A stretch of 36,869 nt of DNA from a bacterium. Lineage in GTDB: Bacteria > Patescibacteriota > UBA1384 > XYA2-FULL-43-10 > JAKAMI01. Positions 573 through 36,710 of this stretch are shown here, one piece after another (the stretch's first letter is position 1; each line of letters opens with the position of its first letter). The notes beneath the pieces are model-generated. The model was not told where the DNA came from. It did no database searches and was given only the letters and a program-made list of their open reading frames with translations. Location: NCBI GenBank assembly GCA_021812945.1, contig JAKAMI010000008.1:1-36869 (forward strand). Reading direction: 5' to 3'. Both the position numbers and the translations under genes were made by a program.

Positions 573-1865
573 TCATAGGACTCTGCTTATCAATTCGGAA
601 ATATTTTTCGAGACAAAAGTTACATATCCCAGATTTTTGGCTTCTTTGAGGCGGCGATCCTCTTTCATAACTTTGCGAATTTCACCAGCTAATCCCAATT
701 CGCCGAAGAAGCATGATTTTTTGGGCAGGGGTTTATTTTTGTATGATGACGTAATAGCTAGGGCAATAGCCAGGTCGAGCGCCGGTTCCGATACCTTCAA
801 ACCACCTGTGATATTTAGGTAAACATCATGATTGGAAAGATTAATATTGGCTCGCTTGGTCAAGATAGCAATGATGATGTTTAACCTATTTAGGTCATAC
901 CCCGAAGCGGTTCGTTTGGGATAGCCGAAATTTGTCGCTACGGTCAATGCTTGCACCTCTACCAAGATTGGTCTGGTACCCTCCAAAGTGACCGCGATAG
1001 CGTTTCCGGGAGCCGAGTCTTGATGCTCTGACAAAAACAGCTCCGAAGGGTTCTTGACCTCCCGCAAACCCTTGTCGGTAATCTGGAAAATACCGCTTTC
1101 GTCGGTGGCTCCAAATCTGTTTTTGATCCCTCGAAGTATCCTGCCGTCATGATATCGCTCGCCCTCAAGATACAAAACCACATCAACCAGATGCTCCAGT
1201 GTCCTAGGTCCGGCCACATCACCCCCCTTGGTGACATGACCGACAAGAATAGCGGTAACGCCCAACTCTTTAATAACTTGCTGAATCCTAAGCGCGCATT
1301 CCTTGACCTGGATCAGGCTTCCGGCCGTAGAGGGAAAATCAATTGAGGCAATAGTTTGGATCGAGTCGATGATAACGAGTTCGGGTCGCTCGCTCGATAT
1401 AGTTTCGATAATGTTGTCCAGATCTGTTTCAGCCACCAACTTTAGCGTCTGGTTAGTAACACCCAGCCTATCTAAACGGCTTTTGACCTGTCCCATTGAT
1501 TCTTCCGCCGAGATATAGAGTGTATTCTGAATCTTTCCCGAGATCTGGGCCAAAAGAGTAGATTTACCGATTCCGGGTTCGCCGGCAAAAAGCAGTAACG
1601 ATCCCCCGACCAGTCCCCCTCCCAAAACTCGGTCGAACTCCCCGATCCCTGTTGCGGTCTTTTTAGCCGTCTCAAGCGAGATCTCTTTTAAACTTTGCGG
1701 CCTCTCTGGTAGTTTCGCATTTCTATTTTGGACTTTTGACTTAGGACTTTGAACTTCTTTTAAGCTGTTCCATTCCCCGCACACCGAACACTTCCCGCTC
1801 CAAGTCAGGAATTCGTTGCCGCAGTTAGTGCACATAAAAATGGTTTTTTCTTTCTTCGGGTTCAT
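573..1865 (-). CDS. radA: DNA repair protein RadA (C4 zinc finger + RecA-like ATPase + Lon-like domain)
   Basis: CTNCG…CSVCGEW, GEPGIGKSTLL, KNRFG motif; likely start ATG 1863-1865 (MNPKKEKTIFMCTNCG), not 2021. Confidence 0.93.
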   Translation of the reverse strand: MNPKKEKTIFMCTNCGNEFLTWSGKCSVCGEWNSLKEVQSPKSKVQNRNAKLPERPQSLKEISLETAKKTATGIGEFDRVLGGGLVGGSLLLFAGEPGIGKSTLLAQISGKIQNTLYISAEESMGQVKSRLDRLGVTNQTLKLVAETDLDNIIETISSERPELVIIDSIQTIASIDFPSTAGSLIQVKECALRIQQVIKELGVTAILVGHVTKGGDVAGPRTLEHLVDVVLYLEGERYHDGRILRGIKNRFGATDESGIFQITDKGLREVKNPSELFLSEHQDSAPGNAIAVTLEGTRPILVEVQALTVATNFGYPKRTASGYDLNRLNIIIAILTKRANINLSNHDVYLNITGGLKVSEPALDLAIALAITSSYKNKPLPKKSCFFGELGLAGEIRKVMKEDRRLKEAKNLGYVTFVSKNISELISRVL

Positions 1866-9142: not shown

Positions 9143-10687
9143 TTATTTCAAACTTAAAACGCTTTTTTTGAATTTCTCTCCTCGATCCTTGTAATTTTTA
9201 AACAAGCCGAAACTGGCGCTGGCAGGGGAGAATAATACCACCTCGCCCGACTTAGCCAGACTTGACGCGACTTTTATAATCTCCTCAATATTTTGTCCAC
9301 CGGGAGAGAGTTGTCCGACGAATTTTTTATCTCGCAATATTGAAGCGATTTTTTCTCCCGTTTCACCGATATAGACTATTGCCTTAATATTTTTCTTTTT
9401 AACCATCTCCTTGGCCAAATCGTTATATTGAATCCCCTTTTCGCTCCCGCCAAGGATTAAAATTTCCGGCTGTTTAAATGAATTGATGGCGGCTATGGTC
9501 GATATCGGGTTGGTGGCATAAGAATCGTTATAATATTTGACTCCCCGTTTTTTCGCCACAAATTCCAGACGATGCTCCAAGCCTTTGAATTCCAAAACCG
9601 CATCTCTGATTGTCTCGGTTTCAACGCCGCATAATTTGGCAACAACAGAGGCTGCCGCGATATTTTCCAAATTGTGTCTGCCGACTACTTGCAATTCGTC
9701 GCTGTCGCAAATATCCTCGTCGATCTCAGCCATTGTTAGAATCACCTTCGACAGCCGGACTCGGGACTCGGGACCCGGAACTTCCCTAACATACGCCCCG
9801 TTCTCCACTCGATTTTTTCCGGAAAAATAATAAACCGACGCCGGTGTCTCCTCCGCAAGTTTGAAAGTTGTTAGAAAATCTTGATTTATAACCGCTAAAT
9901 CGTCTTTGGATTGATGTTTTAAAATGTTGATTTTAGAAGACCAGTACTCATTTATATCGCTGTGGTAATCCAGATGGTCTTCACCAAGATTAGTGATCAC
10001 GGCAACGTGAGGACTTTTATCCAAATCTTGCAACTGAAAACTGGAGAGCTCAAGTATGACAATGTCATCTTTCGTAATACTTTCCAATTTATCGACCGCG
10101 GTTTCCCCTATATTACCCAGCAAATACACGTTGTTCCATTGCTTCATTGCTATTTTCTTTTCCAGTTTTGAATTTGATATTTGGAATTTGTTATTTGTTT
10201 GGTTATTGTTTCTTGTTTCTTGTGATTTGCTCAAAATTAATTGGATCAATTTTGAGGCGGTGCCTTTGCCTTTCGTTCCCGTAACTCCAATGATCTGAGC
10301 TGGGCAAAGGTCAAAAAACAGTTTGATCTGACTCGAAATAACGACTCCGTGTTTTTTGGCTTCTTGAATCTCAGGGGTTAGATACGGAATCCCGGGAGTC
10401 CTGAAAATGACGTCCAATTTATCAAGATCTTCCAGATAATCATCACCAAATCTTGACGTCACACTATTATCATCCTGAACCGACGCAGTCGTCCCGAGTT
10501 CAGACGAGGGATCTGCAATCTGTTTCAGGATCCCATCATTCGTACCGATCATTGCTGGTTGACTGTTCTTATCACGTAATTCGATATTTTTGACCCCGTT
10601 TTTGTACAGAAAAACGGCCAGAGAGACATTCTCCAAGCCCATACCCAAAAGAGCAATTTTTTTGTCCTTCAAATCGCTTATCCGCAT
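9143..10687 (-). CDS. murD: UDP-N-acetylmuramoylalanine--D-glutamate ligase
   Basis: GVTGTKGKGTASK, LSSFQL, ITNLGEDHLDYH, NDSYATNPIST. Confidence 0.93.
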   Translation of the reverse strand: MRISDLKDKKIALLGMGLENVSLAVFLYKNGVKNIELRDKNSQPAMIGTNDGILKQIADPSSELGTTASVQDDNSVTSRFGDDYLEDLDKLDVIFRTPGIPYLTPEIQEAKKHGVVISSQIKLFFDLCPAQIIGVTGTKGKGTASKLIQLILSKSQETRNNNQTNNKFQISNSKLEKKIAMKQWNNVYLLGNIGETAVDKLESITKDDIVILELSSFQLQDLDKSPHVAVITNLGEDHLDYHSDINEYWSSKINILKHQSKDDLAVINQDFLTTFKLAEETPASVYYFSGKNRVENGAYVREVPGPESRVRLSKVILTMAEIDEDICDSDELQVVGRHNLENIAAASVVAKLCGVETETIRDAVLEFKGLEHRLEFVAKKRGVKYYNDSYATNPISTIAAINSFKQPEILILGGSEKGIQYNDLAKEMVKKKNIKAIVYIGETGEKIASILRDKKFVGQLSPGGQNIEEIIKVASSLAKSGEVVLFSPASASFGLFKNYKDRGEKFKKSVLSLK

Positions 10688-17621: not shown

Positions 17622-19052
17622 CTATTTGAAAAACTTCTCCGGATTAAGAACCCGCTGCTCGACATAAGCCCAGACAGCGTCTTTGTGGACTCGAACCTGC
17701 TTCATAGTGTCGCGATGACGAATAGTAACTTTGTTGTCGTTTAGGGTCTCGAAATCAACTGTAACGCAAAGCGGCGTGCCTATCTCGTCTTGGCGGCGAT
17801 AGCGCCGGCCAACCGAACCGGATTCGTCGTAGTAAGCCGACATACCACATTCCTGCAATTTTCGATAAATCTCTTTGGCTATTTCCGGCAACTTGTCCTT
17901 TTTAACCAAGGGGAAAACAGCTACTTTAATAGGCGCGATTCTCGGATTCAATCGCAACGTCACTTCACCTGCAGCCCGACCGTCGGAACCGTCCGATTCA
18001 TCGTACGCATCCACCAGGAAAGCGAGCATGGCTCTATCAACACCCAAGGAAGGCTCAACAACATAGGGAAGGTATTTCCGGCCTGTTTCTTCATCGAAAT
18101 ATTTAAGATCCTTTCCGGAAACTCTTTCATGTTGCTTGAGGTCAAAATCGGTTCTCTGAGCAATACCGCCAAGTTCGGACATTCCGAAAGGGAACTTGTA
18201 CTCTATGTCCGAGGTGCCGATGGAATAATGTGAAAGTTCCTCTTTTTCATGAGGCCTAATTCTCAGATTTTCTTTTTTAATCCCCAAATCGGTATAAAAC
18301 TTCTCCGAGAGTTCTACCCATTCTTGGTATGATTTTTCGGATTCTTCCTTGTTTGGTTTGATGAAATATTCAATCTCCATCTGCTCAAACTCTCGGGTAC
18401 GAAATATGAAGTTTCCCGGGGTTATCTCGTTGCGAAAGGCTTTGCCTATCTGGGCAATGCCGAAAGGCACTTTGACCCGTGTCGACTGGAGGATGTTTTG
18501 AAAATTGATGAAAATACCTTGAGCGGTTTCCGGCCGCAGGTATGCCACCGAAGAGGACTCTTCAACCGGACCAATGAAGGTCTTAAACATTAGATTAAAG
18601 TCCATGGCTTCGGTGAACTCATGCTCCCCGCCCTTAGAACATTTTAGCATTGATTTTTGTTCGGGTGATATTGAATCAAACCAAATTTTGAATTTTGATT
18701 TGTTATTTTGACTTTTGACTTTTAATTTTTGAATTTCTTCTACATGATCGTAGCGAAAACGATTGTGGCACTTCCTGCATTCAACCAGCGGGTCAGTAAA
18801 CGAAGCTAGATGCCCGCTGGCTTCCCAGACTTTGGGATTTTGAATCACAGCCGAATCGACCCCGACAATATCTTCTCTCGCGATAACAAATTTCTGCCAC
18901 CAAACCGATTTGAGGTTGTTTTTTAATTGTGTCCCCAGAGGACCATAGTCATAAACCGAGCCGGTTCCACCGTAAATCTCAGAAGATTGATACACAAAAC
19001 CCCGCCGCTTGCAAAGCGAGACAATCTTTTCCATGATGTTTTGATCAGCCAT
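17622..19052 (-). CDS. glyS: Glycyl-tRNA synthetase (alpha2 type)
   Basis: Class II motifs: RGFVYQSSEIYGG, YLRPETAQGIF, EPSLGVDRAMLAFL, GRRYRRQDEIGTPLCVTVD. Confidence 0.95.
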   Translation of the reverse strand: MADQNIMEKIVSLCKRRGFVYQSSEIYGGTGSVYDYGPLGTQLKNNLKSVWWQKFVIAREDIVGVDSAVIQNPKVWEASGHLASFTDPLVECRKCHNRFRYDHVEEIQKLKVKSQNNKSKFKIWFDSISPEQKSMLKCSKGGEHEFTEAMDFNLMFKTFIGPVEESSSVAYLRPETAQGIFINFQNILQSTRVKVPFGIAQIGKAFRNEITPGNFIFRTREFEQMEIEYFIKPNKEESEKSYQEWVELSEKFYTDLGIKKENLRIRPHEKEELSHYSIGTSDIEYKFPFGMSELGGIAQRTDFDLKQHERVSGKDLKYFDEETGRKYLPYVVEPSLGVDRAMLAFLVDAYDESDGSDGRAAGEVTLRLNPRIAPIKVAVFPLVKKDKLPEIAKEIYRKLQECGMSAYYDESGSVGRRYRRQDEIGTPLCVTVDFETLNDNKVTIRHRDTMKQVRVHKDAVWAYVEQRVLNPEKFFK

Positions 19053-26659: not shown

Positions 26660-26713
26660 ATTATAGAATATTGAATGTAGAACGTAGAATATAGAATATG
26701 GAATATGGAATAA

Positions 26714-27307: not shown

Positions 27308-27550
27308 GATGATTAATCATTAGCTTACCCGACCCACCTCGCGGGAGTCAGGGCCACCCCCGAGGTGATTATTAAATCCCGACATTGACATTATAGCAAA
27401 TATTTGTTAGCTTTAAATTGCCTAGATCATCGGGGTAACAAACCCTAAATCCTAAAACCTAAACTCTAAAATATTTTGAATTTTGTATTTTATTTTGGAA
27501 TTTATTTAGGATTTAGAATTTAGAGTTTTGAATTTGAAAACGGAGCGACT

Positions 27551-28782: not shown

Positions 28783-29327
28783 AAACAACTTTATTTACAT
28801 TTGACCATGCATCGAAAAGATGCACGGTACAAACGAAAATAAAGCCCTCAAAAGCCTGGGTGTTAGACAGACTCACGGGTTGAGCCGAAGATCCGGCGAA
28901 GCAGATTATTCCGGATTAAGCAAATCTTCACACTGACTCATTAAAGAATTAGTAGGATTTGTTTATGGATTTTTCCACAAAGCGGTATCTAGTGGAGCTT
29001 ACAAAAGCTCCAAGGCTCGAAAATAATACGGCAAAGCCGTTAATTACTAGTCAAGAATTATTAAGTTATATGATCAATTAGTACCTCACGACTTAATCCC
29101 TTACAGGACTTACATCTAAGGCCTATCAAACCAGTGGTCTACTGGTGATCTATGAAATCTAATCTTGGAGCCGGCTTCGCGCTTATATGCTTTCAGCGCT
29201 TATCCGAACCGAACATAGCTACTCTGCAGTGCCACAGGTGTGACAACAGATACACCAGAGGTTCGTCCAGGTAGGTCCTCTCGTACTATACCCAGACCTC
29301 CTCAAATTTCCACGCCCACAGCAGATT

Positions 29328-29371
<44 letters not shown>

Positions 29372-29478
29372 CTTTTAATTGGCGAACAGCCAAACCCTTG
29401 GAACGTACTTCCGCTCCAGGATAGGACGAGCCGACATCGAGGTGCCAAACCGCCGCGTCGATGTGGACTCTTGGCGGC

Positions 29479-29513
<35 letters not shown>

Positions 29514-29665
29514 ATGAGCGATCCGCCTATCACTAGGACGGACCGGATCATTAAGTCCTGGTTTCCCATCTGTTCGACTTGTAGGTCTCACAGTTAAGCG
29601 CACTTCTGCCTTTATACTTTCACTCCGATTTCCATCCGGAGTAAGTGCACCTTTGAACGCCTCCG

Positions 29666-30319
29666 TTACAATTTAGGCAATAATGTTAATCCAATTTTCC
29701 CTAACTTATAGTAGAATTCAGGTAATAAGTAAGGAATTATTATTTTAGCGAATCTAATTGCCGAATCTCCGGTCAATAGAAGCTGATTTCCTTCCGATTG
29801 CTTCCTTATTTGAGATTCTATTTCCCAATTTTTCATCAATGTATCTCTTAGTCGATTAATATCAGTATTAGAGAAGCATTGCGTGTTGAGAATTATGGCC
29901 TTATGTTCTTTCGATTTGATTGAACCATCATCCATAAACCAGACTGCTAAACTTTGTGGTCCGAGCAATTTATAAATCATTTTCGGTATTACTTTCTTCC
30001 TCTCACTGTAAAACTGTTGTGCGTAGAAACGAAAACAGGCATGGCTTACCGTATTGAACCAAATGTTCGTTGACGATTTACTATTGACCATTTTTTGTTT
30101 CTCTTGCGGGGAGGTCAGTACCCATTTATTGAATTGCTCGTAAAGCCAATTTGTGTATTTTGCTTGTACGGTTGAATGCTCAACTTTTAATCTATAAGTT
30201 CTACCGTTATTCTGAGTTTCTAGATGTCCATCGCCCAACATAAGACCAACGAGAATTTCTCGCTGATTCTGAGTCAGTTTCAACTCTTTTTTATGCTGTT
30301 CGATTTCTGTGTTGTACAC
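29666..30319 (-). CDS. LAGLIDADG homing endonuclease within group I intron
   Basis: ILVGLMLGDGHLE and SLAVWFMDDGSIK motifs. Confidence 0.92.
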   Translation of the reverse strand: MYNTEIEQHKKELKLTQNQREILVGLMLGDGHLETQNNGRTYRLKVEHSTVQAKYTNWLYEQFNKWVLTSPQEKQKMVNSKSSTNIWFNTVSHACFRFYAQQFYSERKKVIPKMIYKLLGPQSLAVWFMDDGSIKSKEHKAIILNTQCFSNTDINRLRDTLMKNWEIESQIRKQSEGNQLLLTGDSAIRFAKIIIPYLLPEFYYKLGKIGLTLLPKL

Positions 30320-30597
30320 TACAAAACACTCTTTTTGGATTCTTCGAAAACTTTGAAGATCTGCATGTCGCCATGCAGTTCAGACTATATCATCCCCGAT
30401 GTAAGATCGAGGCTTGGCGTGTAGTCGTTGAGGGGTCCCGCTTCGCGAATGCTTCGCGGGACTTCCCTGCTGATTGTCCGCAGGTATAGATTTTCACTAA
30501 TTAGTACTATACCATACTCGGAGGTTCCAGCATATAGCCAAGACGCCCCACGAGATACCGCTCCCGATAAAATATCAGGAAGTAACGAAGTTTGGTA
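29669..30597 (-). mobile_element. Group I intron in domain V (E. coli ~2250-2270 region) carrying LAGLIDADG ORF; 5' boundary ±15 nt
   Basis: Core GACAATCAGCAGGGAAG, GATGATATAGTCTGAACTGCATGGCGACATGCAG; 3' exon TAACGGAGGC preceded by G. Confidence 0.88.
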
Positions 30598-30648
30598 TCT
30601 CCTTAAGGCAACCGCCCCAGTTAAACTACCCGCCAGACACGGTCCCCC

Positions 30649-30817
30649 CACGCCTTTGTTCACAAAGGCGTGAGAATTTTCAATTTTCAAGTGTCAAGTT
30701 TCAAATAATTATCAATTGTTTAATTTCCAATGTTTGAAGATTGAAAATTGGTTACTGAATATTAATTGATCGTTGATATTTGATTATTGATCATTCCCGA
30801 TGCTCATTTATGAGCAA
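30649..30817 (-). repeat. 23S insertion H (class 1 heptad-repeat hairpin, helix ~79)
   Basis: Between CTAACCCCC… and GGGGACCGTGTCTGGCGGG; flanked by small hairpins. Confidence 0.85.
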
Positions 30818-31058
30818 GGGTGTGGGGGTTAGAACCATTCGACTACAAAGGTGGTATTTCACTGTTGTCTCCACCCCGACCGGAGCCGGAGCTTCAAAGA
30901 CTCCCACTTATGCTACGTATGTAGAAAAATAATTCAATGCCAAGCTGTAGTAAAGCTCCACGGGGTCTTTCCGTCTTGCTGCGGGTAACCGGCATCTTTA
31001 CCGGTATTGTAATTTCACCGGACTCCTCGTTGAGACAGTGCTCAAGACCGTTATGCCA

Positions 31059-31100
<42 letters not shown>

Positions 31101-31111
31101 ATAGGACCGTT

Positions 31112-31428
31112 CAGATTGTTACTTCATAACAAAATTTCTAAATCCAAATTTCTAATTTCTAATCAATTCAAAATGATCAAATTTCAAAACTCTTAAAAAA
31201 TTGTTATGGGCCAAACATTTCTGCTTGACTCTGTATGTCACCATACAGTTCAGACTATATCATCTCCAATCGCTGGAGTTTGGCGTATAGTCGTTGGGGA
31301 TTCTCTAATTATTAGTCAGAGTCTTTCCTGCTGATTGTCTCCACAGCCCAACCGGTTGCCCGTTGGGATTCTAGAGATGTTCCAGCATATGGCCAAATTT
31401 ATTAACGTAACTACAATGGTCCATTTTA
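31112..31428 (-). mobile_element. ORF-less group I intron, 317 nt, after E. coli U1917
   Basis: P1 CGUAACUAU/GUAGUUACG with U·G at splice site; terminal G before AACGGTCC; core matches the other intron. Confidence 0.88.
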
Positions 31429-31474
31429 TAGTTACGGCCGCCATTCACTAGGGCTTAGCCAAACCCCTTCTGCG

Positions 31475-31613
31475 CATCTCGCTCCGCTCGCCAGCAAGTC
31501 GAAAGTTTGTAAAGTAATAAAGTTTATAAAGTCTAATGATTTTTCATCTAACTTTATAACTTTAAGAACTTTTAACTTTATAAACTTGTGTGTCGAACAA
31601 AGTGAGACGCACA
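31475..31613 (-). repeat. 23S insertion F (class 2 hairpin, helix 68)
   Basis: …tctcgctccgctcgccagcaagtcgaaagtttgtaaagtaa…aaacttgtgtgtcgaacaaagtgagacgc. Confidence 0.85.
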
Positions 31614-31740
31614 GTCAAGGCCCGGTTTAACCTTCTAGCATTGGGCAGGCATCAGTCCCTATACATCAGCTTTCGCTTTAGCAGAGACCTAAGTTTTTGC
31701 TAAACAGTCGCTTGAGCTCTTTTGTTGTAACCCCGCTTAT

Positions 31741-31920
31741 GCTCTGCACAAAAGAATCAAAGATTAACTTTCAAGTCTCAAGTATCAAGTTTCAATTAAG
31801 TGTCAAATTTCAACTTTCAATTGGCAAATTGATTATTGATAATTGAATATTAATTGATCATAGGACATTGATAATTGACCATTATTTTGATCATTCTGTG
31901 CAAAGCACAGCCAGGGCAGT
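31741..31920 (-). repeat. 23S insertion E (class 1, helix 63 region)
   Basis: Heptads CTTGANA; terminal ctgtgcaaagcacag. Confidence 0.85.
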
Positions 31921-32384
31921 CCTTATTGCTAACTTACGGACGCTGTTTTGCCGAGTTCCTTAACGAGGATTCTTCCGATCATCTTAGGCTACTCGCCTCA
32001 CCCACCTGCGTCGGTTATCGGTACGGTCGCTAACAATCACGCGTTTAAGACTTTTCTTGTCAGATTCGCCACCCTACCTTTCAACCATAAGATTGATAGA
32101 GCTTAAAATCCGCGTCATCTAAAAACAAATTGCCAGCGGTGCTGGAATATTAACCAGCTGTCCATCATCTACGCTGCCATTACAACAGCCTCGACTAAGG
32201 CCCGACTAACCCTGGGACGATTACCGTTGCCCAGGAAACCTTGGGTTTATGATGGGCCGATTTCTCATCGGCCTAATTCGTTACTTATGCCAACATTCTC
32301 ACTTCTTGACGCTCCACCAACCCTTACAGGTCAGCTTCACCGCCTCAAGAACGCTCCTCTACCACGCCACGCTCCGCGCTTCAA

Positions 32385-32464
32385 CTACTAATGTACTAAT
32401 CAATCTAATATACGAATCTGCGGCAGCAATTATTCGTACTTTCGATAAATTCGTACATTAGTAG
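32385..32464 (-). repeat. 23S insertion D (class 3, helix 45)
   Basis: Inverted repeat CTACTAATGTAC…GTACATTAGTAG. Confidence 0.82.
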
Positions 32465-33119
32465 GAAAAGTGCGAAGCACGGCATCCGTATCTTCGGTCG
32501 ATGTCTTGAGCCCCGTTACATTTTCGGCGCAGAATCTCTGTAACCGCGCAAAGCGCGGATTAGACCAGTGAGCTATTACGCACTCTTTAAATGCATGGCT
32601 GCTTCTAAGCCAACATCCTGGTTGTTTAGGAGATTCCACTTCCTTTTCCACTTAGACATCAGTTAGGGACCTTAGATGACGATCAGGGCTGTTTCCCTTT
32701 TGACCATGGAGCTTAGCCCCCACAGTCTGACTCCCTATAAACGGCACCCCAGTATTCGTAGTTTGTCTGAATTCGACAGATTGCTCCGCCAAGATCCAAT
32801 CAGTGCTCTACCCCTGGGACCTATATAGAGGCTATACCTAAATATATTTCGAGGAGAACCAGCTATTTCCGAGTTCGATTGCAATTTCTACGCTACCCAC
32901 AAGTCATCCCGCGACTTTTCAACGTCGCCGGGTTCGGGCCTTCCCCCGATTTTACTCGGGGTTCACCCTGCTCATGGGTTGATCACTCGGTTTCGGGTCT
33001 AGTATGTATGACTAAACGCACTATTAATGCTCGCTTTCACTACGCCTCCGGGTTACACACCCTTAAGCTTGCCATACATAGCTAACTCGTTGGCTCATTC
33101 TACAAAAGGCACGCAGTCA

Positions 33120-33269
33120 CCGCGCTCTGCGCGGAAGTATCAATTTTCAAGTTTCAATTGTCAAGTAATTATCAAGTTTCAATTTTCAATGTTTAGTATT
33201 GATAATTGAAGTATTGAACCTTAATTGATCATTGATATTTGATCATTGAAATCTCTGTGCAAAGCACGG
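33120..33269 (-). repeat. 23S insertion C (class 1, helix 25)
   Basis: ccgcgctctgcgcgg … ctgtgcaaagcacgg around heptad arms. Confidence 0.86.
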
Positions 33270-33334
33270 CTCCTACTCTTTGTAAGCATTATGGTTTCAG
33301 GTACTATTTCACTCCCCTAAAAGGGGTACTTTTA

Positions 33335-33370
<36 letters not shown>

Positions 33371-33555
33371 AAGATGTATTTAGTCTTGGAGTGTGATCAC
33401 CCCAGCTTCCCACCGGATTACACGTGCCCGGTGGTACTCAGGAACACCAACTAGACTTTACTAAGATTTCGAGTAAGGGACTATCACCCTCTTTGGTCGT
33501 CCTTTCCAGGCTCGTTCCTCTATCTTTTCGAATCTATTATATGGGTCCTACAACC

Positions 33556-33698
33556 CCGCGTGTCTCGCTTCACTCGCCACTGCAAGTTAAAAGTTGAAAG
33601 TTGAAAGTTTGTAAAGTAATTATTAATTTGTTCTACTTTATAACTTTATGAACTTAATACTTTATGAACTTGCGTGTCGAACAAAGTGAGACACACGG
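33556..33698 (-). repeat. 23S insertion B (class 2, domain I helix ~16-18)
   Basis: cgcgtgtctc…gagacacacg arms; AU-rich heptad stem. Confidence 0.85.
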
Positions 33699-33795
33699 TT
33701 TGGACTATTTCCCGTTTCGCTCGCCACTACTCAGGGAATCTCGTTGATTTATTTTCCTCCGGGTACTAAGATGTTTCAGTTCCCCGGCTTACCCT

Positions 33796-33944
33796 CCGCG
33801 CACAGCGCGGAATTATCAAAAGTAAGTTTCAAGTATCAAGTTTCATTTTTTCAAGTATTTACTTGATTATTGATTATTGAAGATTAATTGATCATTGAAC
33901 ATTGATAATTGACCATTATTTTGATCATTCCGTGCTATGCACGG
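33796..33944 (-). repeat. 23S insertion A (class 1, helix 9)
   Basis: ccgcgcacagcgcgg … ccgtgctatgcacgg around heptad arms. Confidence 0.86.
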
Positions 33945-34439
33945 ATCACTGTTTTAAACAGTGGGATTTCTCCATTCGGAAATCTTCGGATCAAAGGTTG
34001 TTTGACACCTCCCCGAAGCTTATCGCAGCCTACTACGTCCTTCTTCGGCATCTTGTGCCTAGGCATCCACCATATGCTCTTACGTAACTTAATTTTTTAG
34101 TTGGAGGTCGAGTTCAAATGGTCATCATGATCTAAAAGATCAGAATAACCCTTGATCCCGACGCAACTTCTTGACTAGTAATTAACGGCTTCAATTACAC
34201 AAGTCCGCAGTCCAAGAGTCCAAAAGTCCGAAGATGTTCTAAGGACTAGGGACTAACGACTTAGGATTTGTAATTGCTTCGCAATTACTTATATTCGGAA
34301 GAATATTTTTTGGTGAAATTACACGCAATCCCATATTTCAGGGACTTACATTTAGCGTGTAAAATTTCGTGAACCTTTATTAGGCTGACCTTCTAAAGAT
34401 TCACAATATTTAGTTGTTAAAGTACGATGACATACTTTT

Positions 34440-35588: not shown

Positions 35589-36710
35589 CTACTGCGACAA
35601 TGTGGTGATCGGTCGCGACTGGACGATGTACAATTCCAATTTGACATTCTCCCGACTTTTGGACTTCCGGACTTTTGGACTCTTGGACTGCCCCTTCGGG
35701 GCCGCCGCCCACTCGATGTCGCAAGGGAAACCATAATGTTTTTCGATGCCAAGGCAAATCTCCGCTAGCTCGACAATCTTTTCGTCTGATAATTTCTGTT
35801 TCTCCCACTCGTCCCGCGCCACCTCTACTTCCTTCGTCCCCTCCGGCCCCCGAACAATCTTCATCTCCTGCTCCGAGATATATTTTTCAGTGATTATTTC
35901 GTTGGAATGTTTAATATGGAATGTAGAATTTGGGTTATTGGTTTTGGCATTTGGAATTTTGAATTTAGAATTTTTTTCGGATTTAGAGTTTAGGATTTCG
36001 GATTTCCGGATAACGTAGTTATCCGGCGTTATCATTCCTCCGACTATCGCCTCTCCCAGTCCCCATCCGGCCTCGATGACCATTTGGTCACGGTCCTCGG
36101 TCACCGGGTGAACGGTGAAACAGATTCCTGAAACCTCCGACTGGATCATCTTCTGCACCACCACCGCCACCGAGACCGCGGCGTTGTGCATGTTTTTTTC
36201 GATGCGGTAAAATATGGCTCTGGGGGTAAATAAAGAAGCCCAGCAATTTTTAATATTTTCAAATAATGTCTCTTTGGTAGTGTTTAGGAAACTATCCAGC
36301 TCTCCGGCCCAGGAAGCGTCCGAAGAATCCTCGGCCGTGGCGGAAGAACGAACGGCGACCAATAAGTCAGTTATCGGTTGTCCGTAGTCAGTGGTCAGGA
36401 ATTGATAATGTTCATTGATTTCCGTAGCGATCTCCTCCGGCATCTGGGCGGATTTGATAATAGCCTGAATCTCGCCTGAAGTGTTTTCGACTGAATTAAC
36501 ATCTTTGTGATTCACTTGAGCTAATAATGAATCAATGTCCGCCTTTATTCCGGCCTGCTCCAAAAAGTAGTCAAACGCCCCTGAGAGAACCACAAACCCT
36601 GGCGGCACCGGAATGCCCGCGTTCGACATTTCACCTAAAGATGCCCCCTTGCCCCCGGCGATCTCCGCATCCCCTTTCCCAAGTTGTTTGAAAGTTTTGA
36701 TAAAAGTCAT
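35589..36710 (-). CDS. PEP synthase/PPDK N-terminal (PEP/pyruvate-binding) domain protein
   Basis: GGKGASLGEMSNAGIPVPPGFVV, VRSSATAEDSSDASWAG, QSRPITTL; no phosphohistidine or C-terminal domain. Confidence 0.88.
   Translation of the reverse strand: MTFIKTFKQLGKGDAEIAGGKGASLGEMSNAGIPVPPGFVVLSGAFDYFLEQAGIKADIDSLLAQVNHKDVNSVENTSGEIQAIIKSAQMPEEIATEINEHYQFLTTDYGQPITDLLVAVRSSATAEDSSDASWAGELDSFLNTTKETLFENIKNCWASLFTPRAIFYRIEKNMHNAAVSVAVVVQKMIQSEVSGICFTVHPVTEDRDQMVIEAGWGLGEAIVGGMITPDNYVIRKSEILNSKSEKNSKFKIPNAKTNNPNSTFHIKHSNEIITEKYISEQEMKIVRGPEGTKEVEVARDEWEKQKLSDEKIVELAEICLGIEKHYGFPCDIEWAAAPKGQSKSPKVRKSKSRENVKLELYIVQSRPITTLSQ

Follow-up and report, generated by a model that had tools for sequence, protein, structure and literature searches.

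A seven-base repeat array in a patescibacterial PPDK_N gene as a probable arm of a dispersed DNA element

How does an array of seven-base repeats come to lie, in frame, inside the gene of a conserved enzyme domain? The question is raised by contig JAKAMI010000008.1 (assembly GCA_021812945.1; Patescibacteriota, UBA1384), whose whole stretch of 36,869 nucleotides is called the window here and which is one contig of a 912-kb, 42-contig, 96%-complete genome. The host gene (35589..36710, minus strand) encodes a stand-alone PPDK_N, or PEP-synthase ATP-binding-domain, protein of 373 aa (PF01326, E=7e-99), whose fold matches the ATP-binding domain of rifampin phosphotransferase (5hv6) and PEP synthase (2ols). 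An earlier note, made from the letters of the window, had described a heptad-repeat array at 35904-36009 of this gene; both the sequence that it quoted and the translation proved correct when re-read from the DNA. We propose that the array probably represents an arm of a dispersed DNA element, small and non-coding, which has spread by copying and not by fresh local slippage.

Inserts in the PPDK_N protein

Over 35904-36009, identity at a lag of 7 nt is 0.64, versus 0.33 +/- 0.06 in Markov simulations (p ~0.0005), and it is 0.59 at lag 14 and 0.48 at lag 21. The insertion itself, insert 1, spans 96 nt or 32 aa (35904..35999, minus strand; aa 238-269). It is sharply delimited by alignment with about 60 usable homologues, drawn from the order, the class, the phylum and further named metagenome-assembled genomes (MAGs). 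A search of these homologues for the same linker residues found the insert in none of them: the 32 extra residues occur only in the window protein, and the homologues pass directly from TPDxYVxxK to the next strand. PPDK_N homologues in relatives are accordingly shorter, at ~311-317 aa.

Read in the sense direction, on the minus strand, insert 1 opens with an A block of four heptads, AAATCCG AAATCCT AAACTCT AAATCCG (35978..36005), whose outer edge overlaps the host boundary. A register break follows, AAAAAA (GAAAAAAA; 35972..35977), which aligns with the CTAAAnAAA of other arms, and then TTCTAAATTCAAAATTCC. The B block, made of TTCTAAATTCAAAATTCCAAATGCC heptads (35946..35971), is placed by alignment with intergenic arms, and the tail (35904..35945) is like other heptad subfamilies (AATAACC, CATATTCC; compare loci L041 at 14672 and L076 at 6164).

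Two further inserts in the same gene had been overlooked, and they occupy other turns of the protein than insert 1. Insert 2, GQSKSPKVRKSKSRENVKL (35637..35693, minus strand; TRF 35650-35689), is AAGTCC-type with a period of ~8 and is found in the window protein alone in the alignment. Insert 3, YGQPITDL (~36363..36386, minus strand), is a short heptad array, a unique period-7 insert with a lag-7 identity of 0.56. The AlphaFold model of the protein has a confident core (mean predicted local distance difference test score, pLDDT, 84.6), and pLDDT falls below 50 at residues 247-251 and 253-265 of insert 1 and at 344-348 of insert 2. As modeled, all three inserts fall in loops that are disordered or of lower confidence.

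The PPDK_N relative from Berkelbacteria carries a heptad insert of its own, at a fourth turn, with a lag-7 identity of 0.74. Homologues in other Patescibacteria (L110, L127, L145, L147) are interrupted in frame at two turns by different inserts, among them palindromic ones, and these turns are thus insertion hot spots. A short PPDK_N relative of the same order (genome G005, locus L010) is sequence-identical to the Candidatus Berkelbacteria MAG PEZW01000011 (locus L080, Ca. Berkelbacteria CG10 43_13), within which L010 falls; likewise, L011 equals L079 at the insertion site.

Arm architecture and dispersal

The rest of the genome was surveyed in a sample of 647 kb of the 912 kb, taken as stretches, with uncurated gene calls based on open reading frames (ORFs); arrays within an ORF 150 aa or longer are counted as coding. 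In the first 386 kb, 78 period-7 segments exceed the threshold, versus 25 for period 8 and 0-2 for periods 4-6, and third-order Markov controls give none of period 7. The 647 kb contain 119 merged period-7 arrays, 45 coding and 74 noncoding, at densities of 8.9 per 100 kb coding and 52 per 100 kb noncoding. Hosts of the coding arrays include DnaE, ValRS, GlyRS, TsaD, GatB, MnmA and MurD, and comparison with solved structures places extra residues at the arrays of MurD, ValRS (three arrays) and GlyRS.

The orientation of the coding arrays is strongly biased. As the earlier note had proposed, the A-rich strand is the sense strand, in 41 of 44 coding arrays (host background 61%). As for the companion claim, that the opposite strand would bring many stops, all three antisense frames are blocked in 23 of 45 coding arrays, while none of the 45 has stops in every sense frame.

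In the A-rich direction the arm consensus is AAAYYCT four times, a CTAAAnAAA break and then TTCAAAA-like heptads. Of 25 arms across the genome, 22 have exactly four A units ahead of the break, and three of these are in coding genes, namely insert 1 of PPDK_N, L045 in GatB and L052 in TsaD. An inverted partner lies near 35 of the 74 noncoding arrays and near none of the 45 coding ones. The noncoding two-arm copies, of ~120-150 bp, fold as long hairpins and occupy entire gaps between operon genes; their variable heptad positions are mostly C/T, so that pairing stays possible. The coding copies, that of PPDK_N included, are single-armed and not palindromic.

The same arm is dispersed through the class. 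Used as a query against 56 genomes from the order and class, it matches 31 of them, patchily among relatives, with full-length copies of 80-86% identity that are often inverted pairs. A control query with its blocks swapped gives partial matches only, at best 54.5 bits, versus 87.8 for the true arm in its own genome and 72.5 in relatives. At the phylum level, TCAAN3 x4 is found in 64 of 192 genomes and TCAAN4 x4 in 10. The earlier view of the array as a selfish repeat tolerated in surface linkers gains support from this genome- and class-wide dispersal, together with the precise insertion and the low-confidence loops.

The TCAANNN heptads belong to a sister family, a 154-nt two-arm element that inhabits structural RNA genes. 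The 23S rRNA gene of the window (29058..34093, minus strand; Rfam) is 5036 nt long against a 2925-nt model, and it contains two group I introns as well as heptad elements. Its four copies of the sister element, all on the minus strand, are at 30675..30795 (76% to the 16S and RNase P element), 31752..31900 (88% identity over 149/154 nt), 33140..33250 (80% identity) and 33831..33934 (85% identity). A further copy in the 16S gene is 97% identical to the query, and three others are in the RNase P RNA gene or adjacent to it (86-96%, best 96%). The 16S and RNase P copies are at stem-loops, with short hairpins on their flanks. The group I introns are at 30361-30586 and 31231-31437, and a LAGLIDADG_2 endonuclease ORF (29666-30319) lies within the 23S gene region.

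Other arrays that the earlier note had implied do exist in the window, in radA, murD, glyS and intergenic DNA besides the 23S rRNA gene. An intergenic two-arm palindrome (27440..27535) is, by arm alignment, the same element as in the PPDK_N gene, and a second intergenic array (GAATATAG-type, 26662..26712) has a lag-7 identity of 0.80. In murD (minus strand), an insert (SQETRNNNQTNNKFQISNSKLEK, 10159..10223) adds ~28 residues relative to the MurD structure 3lk7, and a second, short array (VPGPESRVR, 9757..9781) is at a gap relative to 3lk7. The glyS array (EIQKLKVKSQNNKSKFKIW, 18684..18736, minus strand) gives extra residues relative to 8sld. The radA array (1713..1756, minus strand) follows the zinc finger, in a linker whose length is near that of the reference, and an insertion is not demonstrable. 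Where the radA frame starts, a tandem AAGACAGTCTTTACTGGTATCA (1944-2019) resembles the palindrome (AAGACAGTCTT) that flanks a transposase gene at locus L050, described below; translation of radA probably begins downstream of this tandem repeat.

Origin and persistence of the arrays

How might such an element have spread? The complete element would be a palindrome of ~120-150 bp with arms of ~55-60 nt; in each arm, a fixed register break would separate four heptads of one type from about three of another. Whole arms or elements would be copied to new places, and the copies would persist, as selfish or neutral DNA, where they are harmless. Two-arm forms would be harmless in operon gaps, the sister family at the stem-loop tips of structural RNAs, and single arms in protein surface loops, with the stop-free A-rich strand as sense. 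Later slippage may then have touched up the arrays, in a genome without detectable MutS.

A lead on the insertion step comes from the edge of insert 1. Directly on its 5′ (sense) side is a perfect 9-bp hairpin, CCGGATAAC-TAC-GTTATCCGG (36006..36026, minus strand). Where the window has GTTATCCGG, the homologues read CCGGATAATTATGTYRTYGAY (GTYRTYGAY), and hence the second hairpin arm is derived, or new, in the window. Of 45 coding arrays, 4 adjoin a perfect hairpin at their 5′ sense flank, versus 0.6% of random sites (p = 2e-4), in a test with few cases made after the pattern had been spotted. At the 3′ flank there are none, and noncoding arrays give a weak signal (p = 0.02-0.06). Mini-hairpins of a similar kind border the copies in rRNA and RNase P. 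As a lead, the perfect hairpins at this small share of coding arrays suggest fold-back synthesis or hairpin targeting at insertion. It is tempting to go further and propose a new class of prokaryotic dispersed element, whose period-7 arms and adjoining perfect hairpins would be traces of how it forms: nascent-strand fold-back or template switching would copy a heptad arm into stem-loop sites, leaving palindromes where the DNA is noncoding and single arms within genes, as it spreads in Patescibacteria that lack mismatch repair; at present we regard this as rather unlikely.

Mobilization by a REP-associated tyrosine transposase (RAYT) and repetitive extragenic palindromes (REPs) was rejected, since at the four RAYT loci inspected, of five, the gene is bordered on each side by palindromes of another kind, unrelated to the heptads. 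The five RAYT-like Y1 transposases are at L050 17505-18071, L073 11910-12473, L056 15876-16565, L071 15496-16089 and G000:C39:33519. The genome sample also has three RVT_1 (reverse transcriptase) matches, to which no link with the elements has been shown; reverse transcriptases are at L057 4848-5813 and at L048 3956-5117, the latter split into two frames. A full transposon with element-like ends was not noticed, though no systematic search was made.

Several observations weigh against the proposed dispersed element. No transposase, target-site duplication or same-species empty-site pair was found, among relatives that included no genome of the same family. The coding subfamilies (AAGTCAA)n, (CCGACAA)n and (ATCTCAA)n are near-perfect tandems, obtainable by slippage alone; since a fixed length is demonstrated for the AAAYYCT/TTCAAAA family alone, the other coding arrays may include slippage products. 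The cross-genome similarity of 77-86% is in AT-rich periodic DNA, and part of it could be convergence, most but not all of which is removed by the block-swapped control, whose partial matches are also many. Moreover, the arms of one element are no more alike than arms of different elements. Within-element co-evolution of arms was rejected as a candidate on the same ground, arms of one element pairing and aligning no better than arms taken from different elements. In the ATCTCAA subfamily (coding arrays L042, L047, L073, L071), similar peptides (SQISDLKSQN-GSN) occur in several unrelated proteins, and some of the similarity extends past the heptads.

The strongest alternative is replication slippage, by which arrays would grow locally from chance seeds through 7-nt mispairing, favored by the polymerase footprint and missing mismatch repair, and would then be blurred by point mutation. 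Period 7 is in fact the commonest long period of simple sequence repeats (SSRs) in many bacteria, and the polymerase-footprint idea has been published (PMC4679880, PMC4692102). The MutS_V profile has no match in the genome sample, neighboring heptad units are more similar than distant ones, and some arrays are the near-perfect tandems just described. The earlier note had entertained slippage as a source of the array, and as the main origin it is not supported: the unit number (four), the block order and the register break are conserved across unrelated loci and across genomes, and independent slippage would leave neither unit number nor break fixed. Nor would slippage be expected to yield long two-arm copies that are almost identical between the 16S and RNase P genes. 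We therefore consider slippage an unlikely origin, while leaving it the touching-up role given above.

A functional element, with two-arm copies kept for RNase III processing, mRNA stability or transcription pausing and coding copies as by-products, seems to us quite improbable. The hairpins are long and stable (folding z = -6.7 for the 16S copy), two-arm copies fill complete intergenic gaps in operons, the mostly C/T variation preserves pairing, and the NEMIS hairpins of Neisseria are RNase III sites (PMC2229807). However, occurrence in relatives is patchy, pairing within an element is no better than between elements, and single arms sit in essential enzymes without a partner. That the inserted peptide is an adaptive linker serving the PPDK_N enzyme has its being in frame in its favor and nothing further, and it is very improbable given similar peptides in unrelated enzymes, disorder in the model, absence from homologues and the same DNA outside genes. 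An assembly or binning artefact of the MAG is practically negligible: repeats near contig ends are somewhat above expectation (8 of 48 versus ~3), but arrays lie without frameshifts inside long essential-gene frames, and separate assemblies of other genomes in the class contain the element too.

Comparison with known systems

Although the small genomes of Patescibacteria are usually described as streamlined, in this one the element sits in a DNA polymerase, tRNA synthetases, cell-wall ligases, both large rRNAs and RNase P RNA. It offers an identity for unexplained short insertions in the rRNA of this genome and accounts for odd lysine/asparagine-rich linkers in its proteins. It also indicates that over-represented seven-base repeats can be remnants of dispersed elements rather than slippage. 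No description of the heptad architecture, or of such elements in Patescibacteria, was found in the literature searched, which excluded most subscription journals.

The nearest repeats in unit length are the heptanucleotide short tandemly repeated repetitive (STRR) sequences and SSRs (the STRR of Calothrix, TAACTGA of Beggiatoaceae, GGGAATC of Xanthomonas), which are tandem, dispersed, mostly intergenic and sometimes stop-free in ORFs (PMC4679880, PMC4692102). They have the tandem 7-nt period in common with our arrays, but each of those families has one unit and a free copy number, whereas our units are degenerate and of two types, set in order on either side of a break; 22 of the 25 arms have four A units, and inversion of arms is frequent. 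The tandem repeats of Borgs are likewise A-rich and create disordered protein segments, and they are reported to be rapidly evolving and independently formed (PMC9879509); ours, in contrast, are a dispersed, degenerate family of fixed architecture.

Bacterial miniature inverted-repeat transposable elements (MITEs; ERIC, Correia/NEMIS, RUP) are short non-coding inverted-repeat elements that give long stem-loop RNA and some ORF fusions (PMC2229807). The noncoding arrays with an inverted partner resemble them, and the coding arrays, none of which has one, do not; of the target-site duplication and partner transposase of MITEs, neither was found here. The REP/RAYT system differs in that its elements flank the Y1 transposase gene. 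In rRNA, a survey of the candidate phyla radiation (CPR) describes short (<200 bp) insertions at stem-loops, their identity uncharacterized (PMC11270868). These, like intervening sequences (IVS), resemble our rRNA copies as short inserts at rRNA stem-loops, whereas those of this genome are copies of one element, which also occurs in RNase P RNA and shares its design with the intergenic and protein-gene inserts.

The closest likeness is to the Rickettsia palindromic elements (RPEs), palindromes of ~105-150 bp that are found in intergenic DNA, in frame in many conserved protein genes and reportedly also in RNase P RNA, with no known transposase and neutral or slightly harmful effects (PMC2229807, PMC10969869). 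The long palindromic stem-loop has its counterpart in our two-arm noncoding copies, in-frame insertion in conserved genes in PPDK_N, MurD and ValRS, and structural RNA insertion in the sister family of RNase P, 16S and 23S. The present element differs in that each arm is a run of degenerate heptads broken in register, its coding copies are single-armed, and it resides in Patescibacteria and in 16S and 23S rRNA. It behaves like the RPEs, the resemblance being one of behavior, and it offers a test bed for the origin of in-frame elements of their kind.
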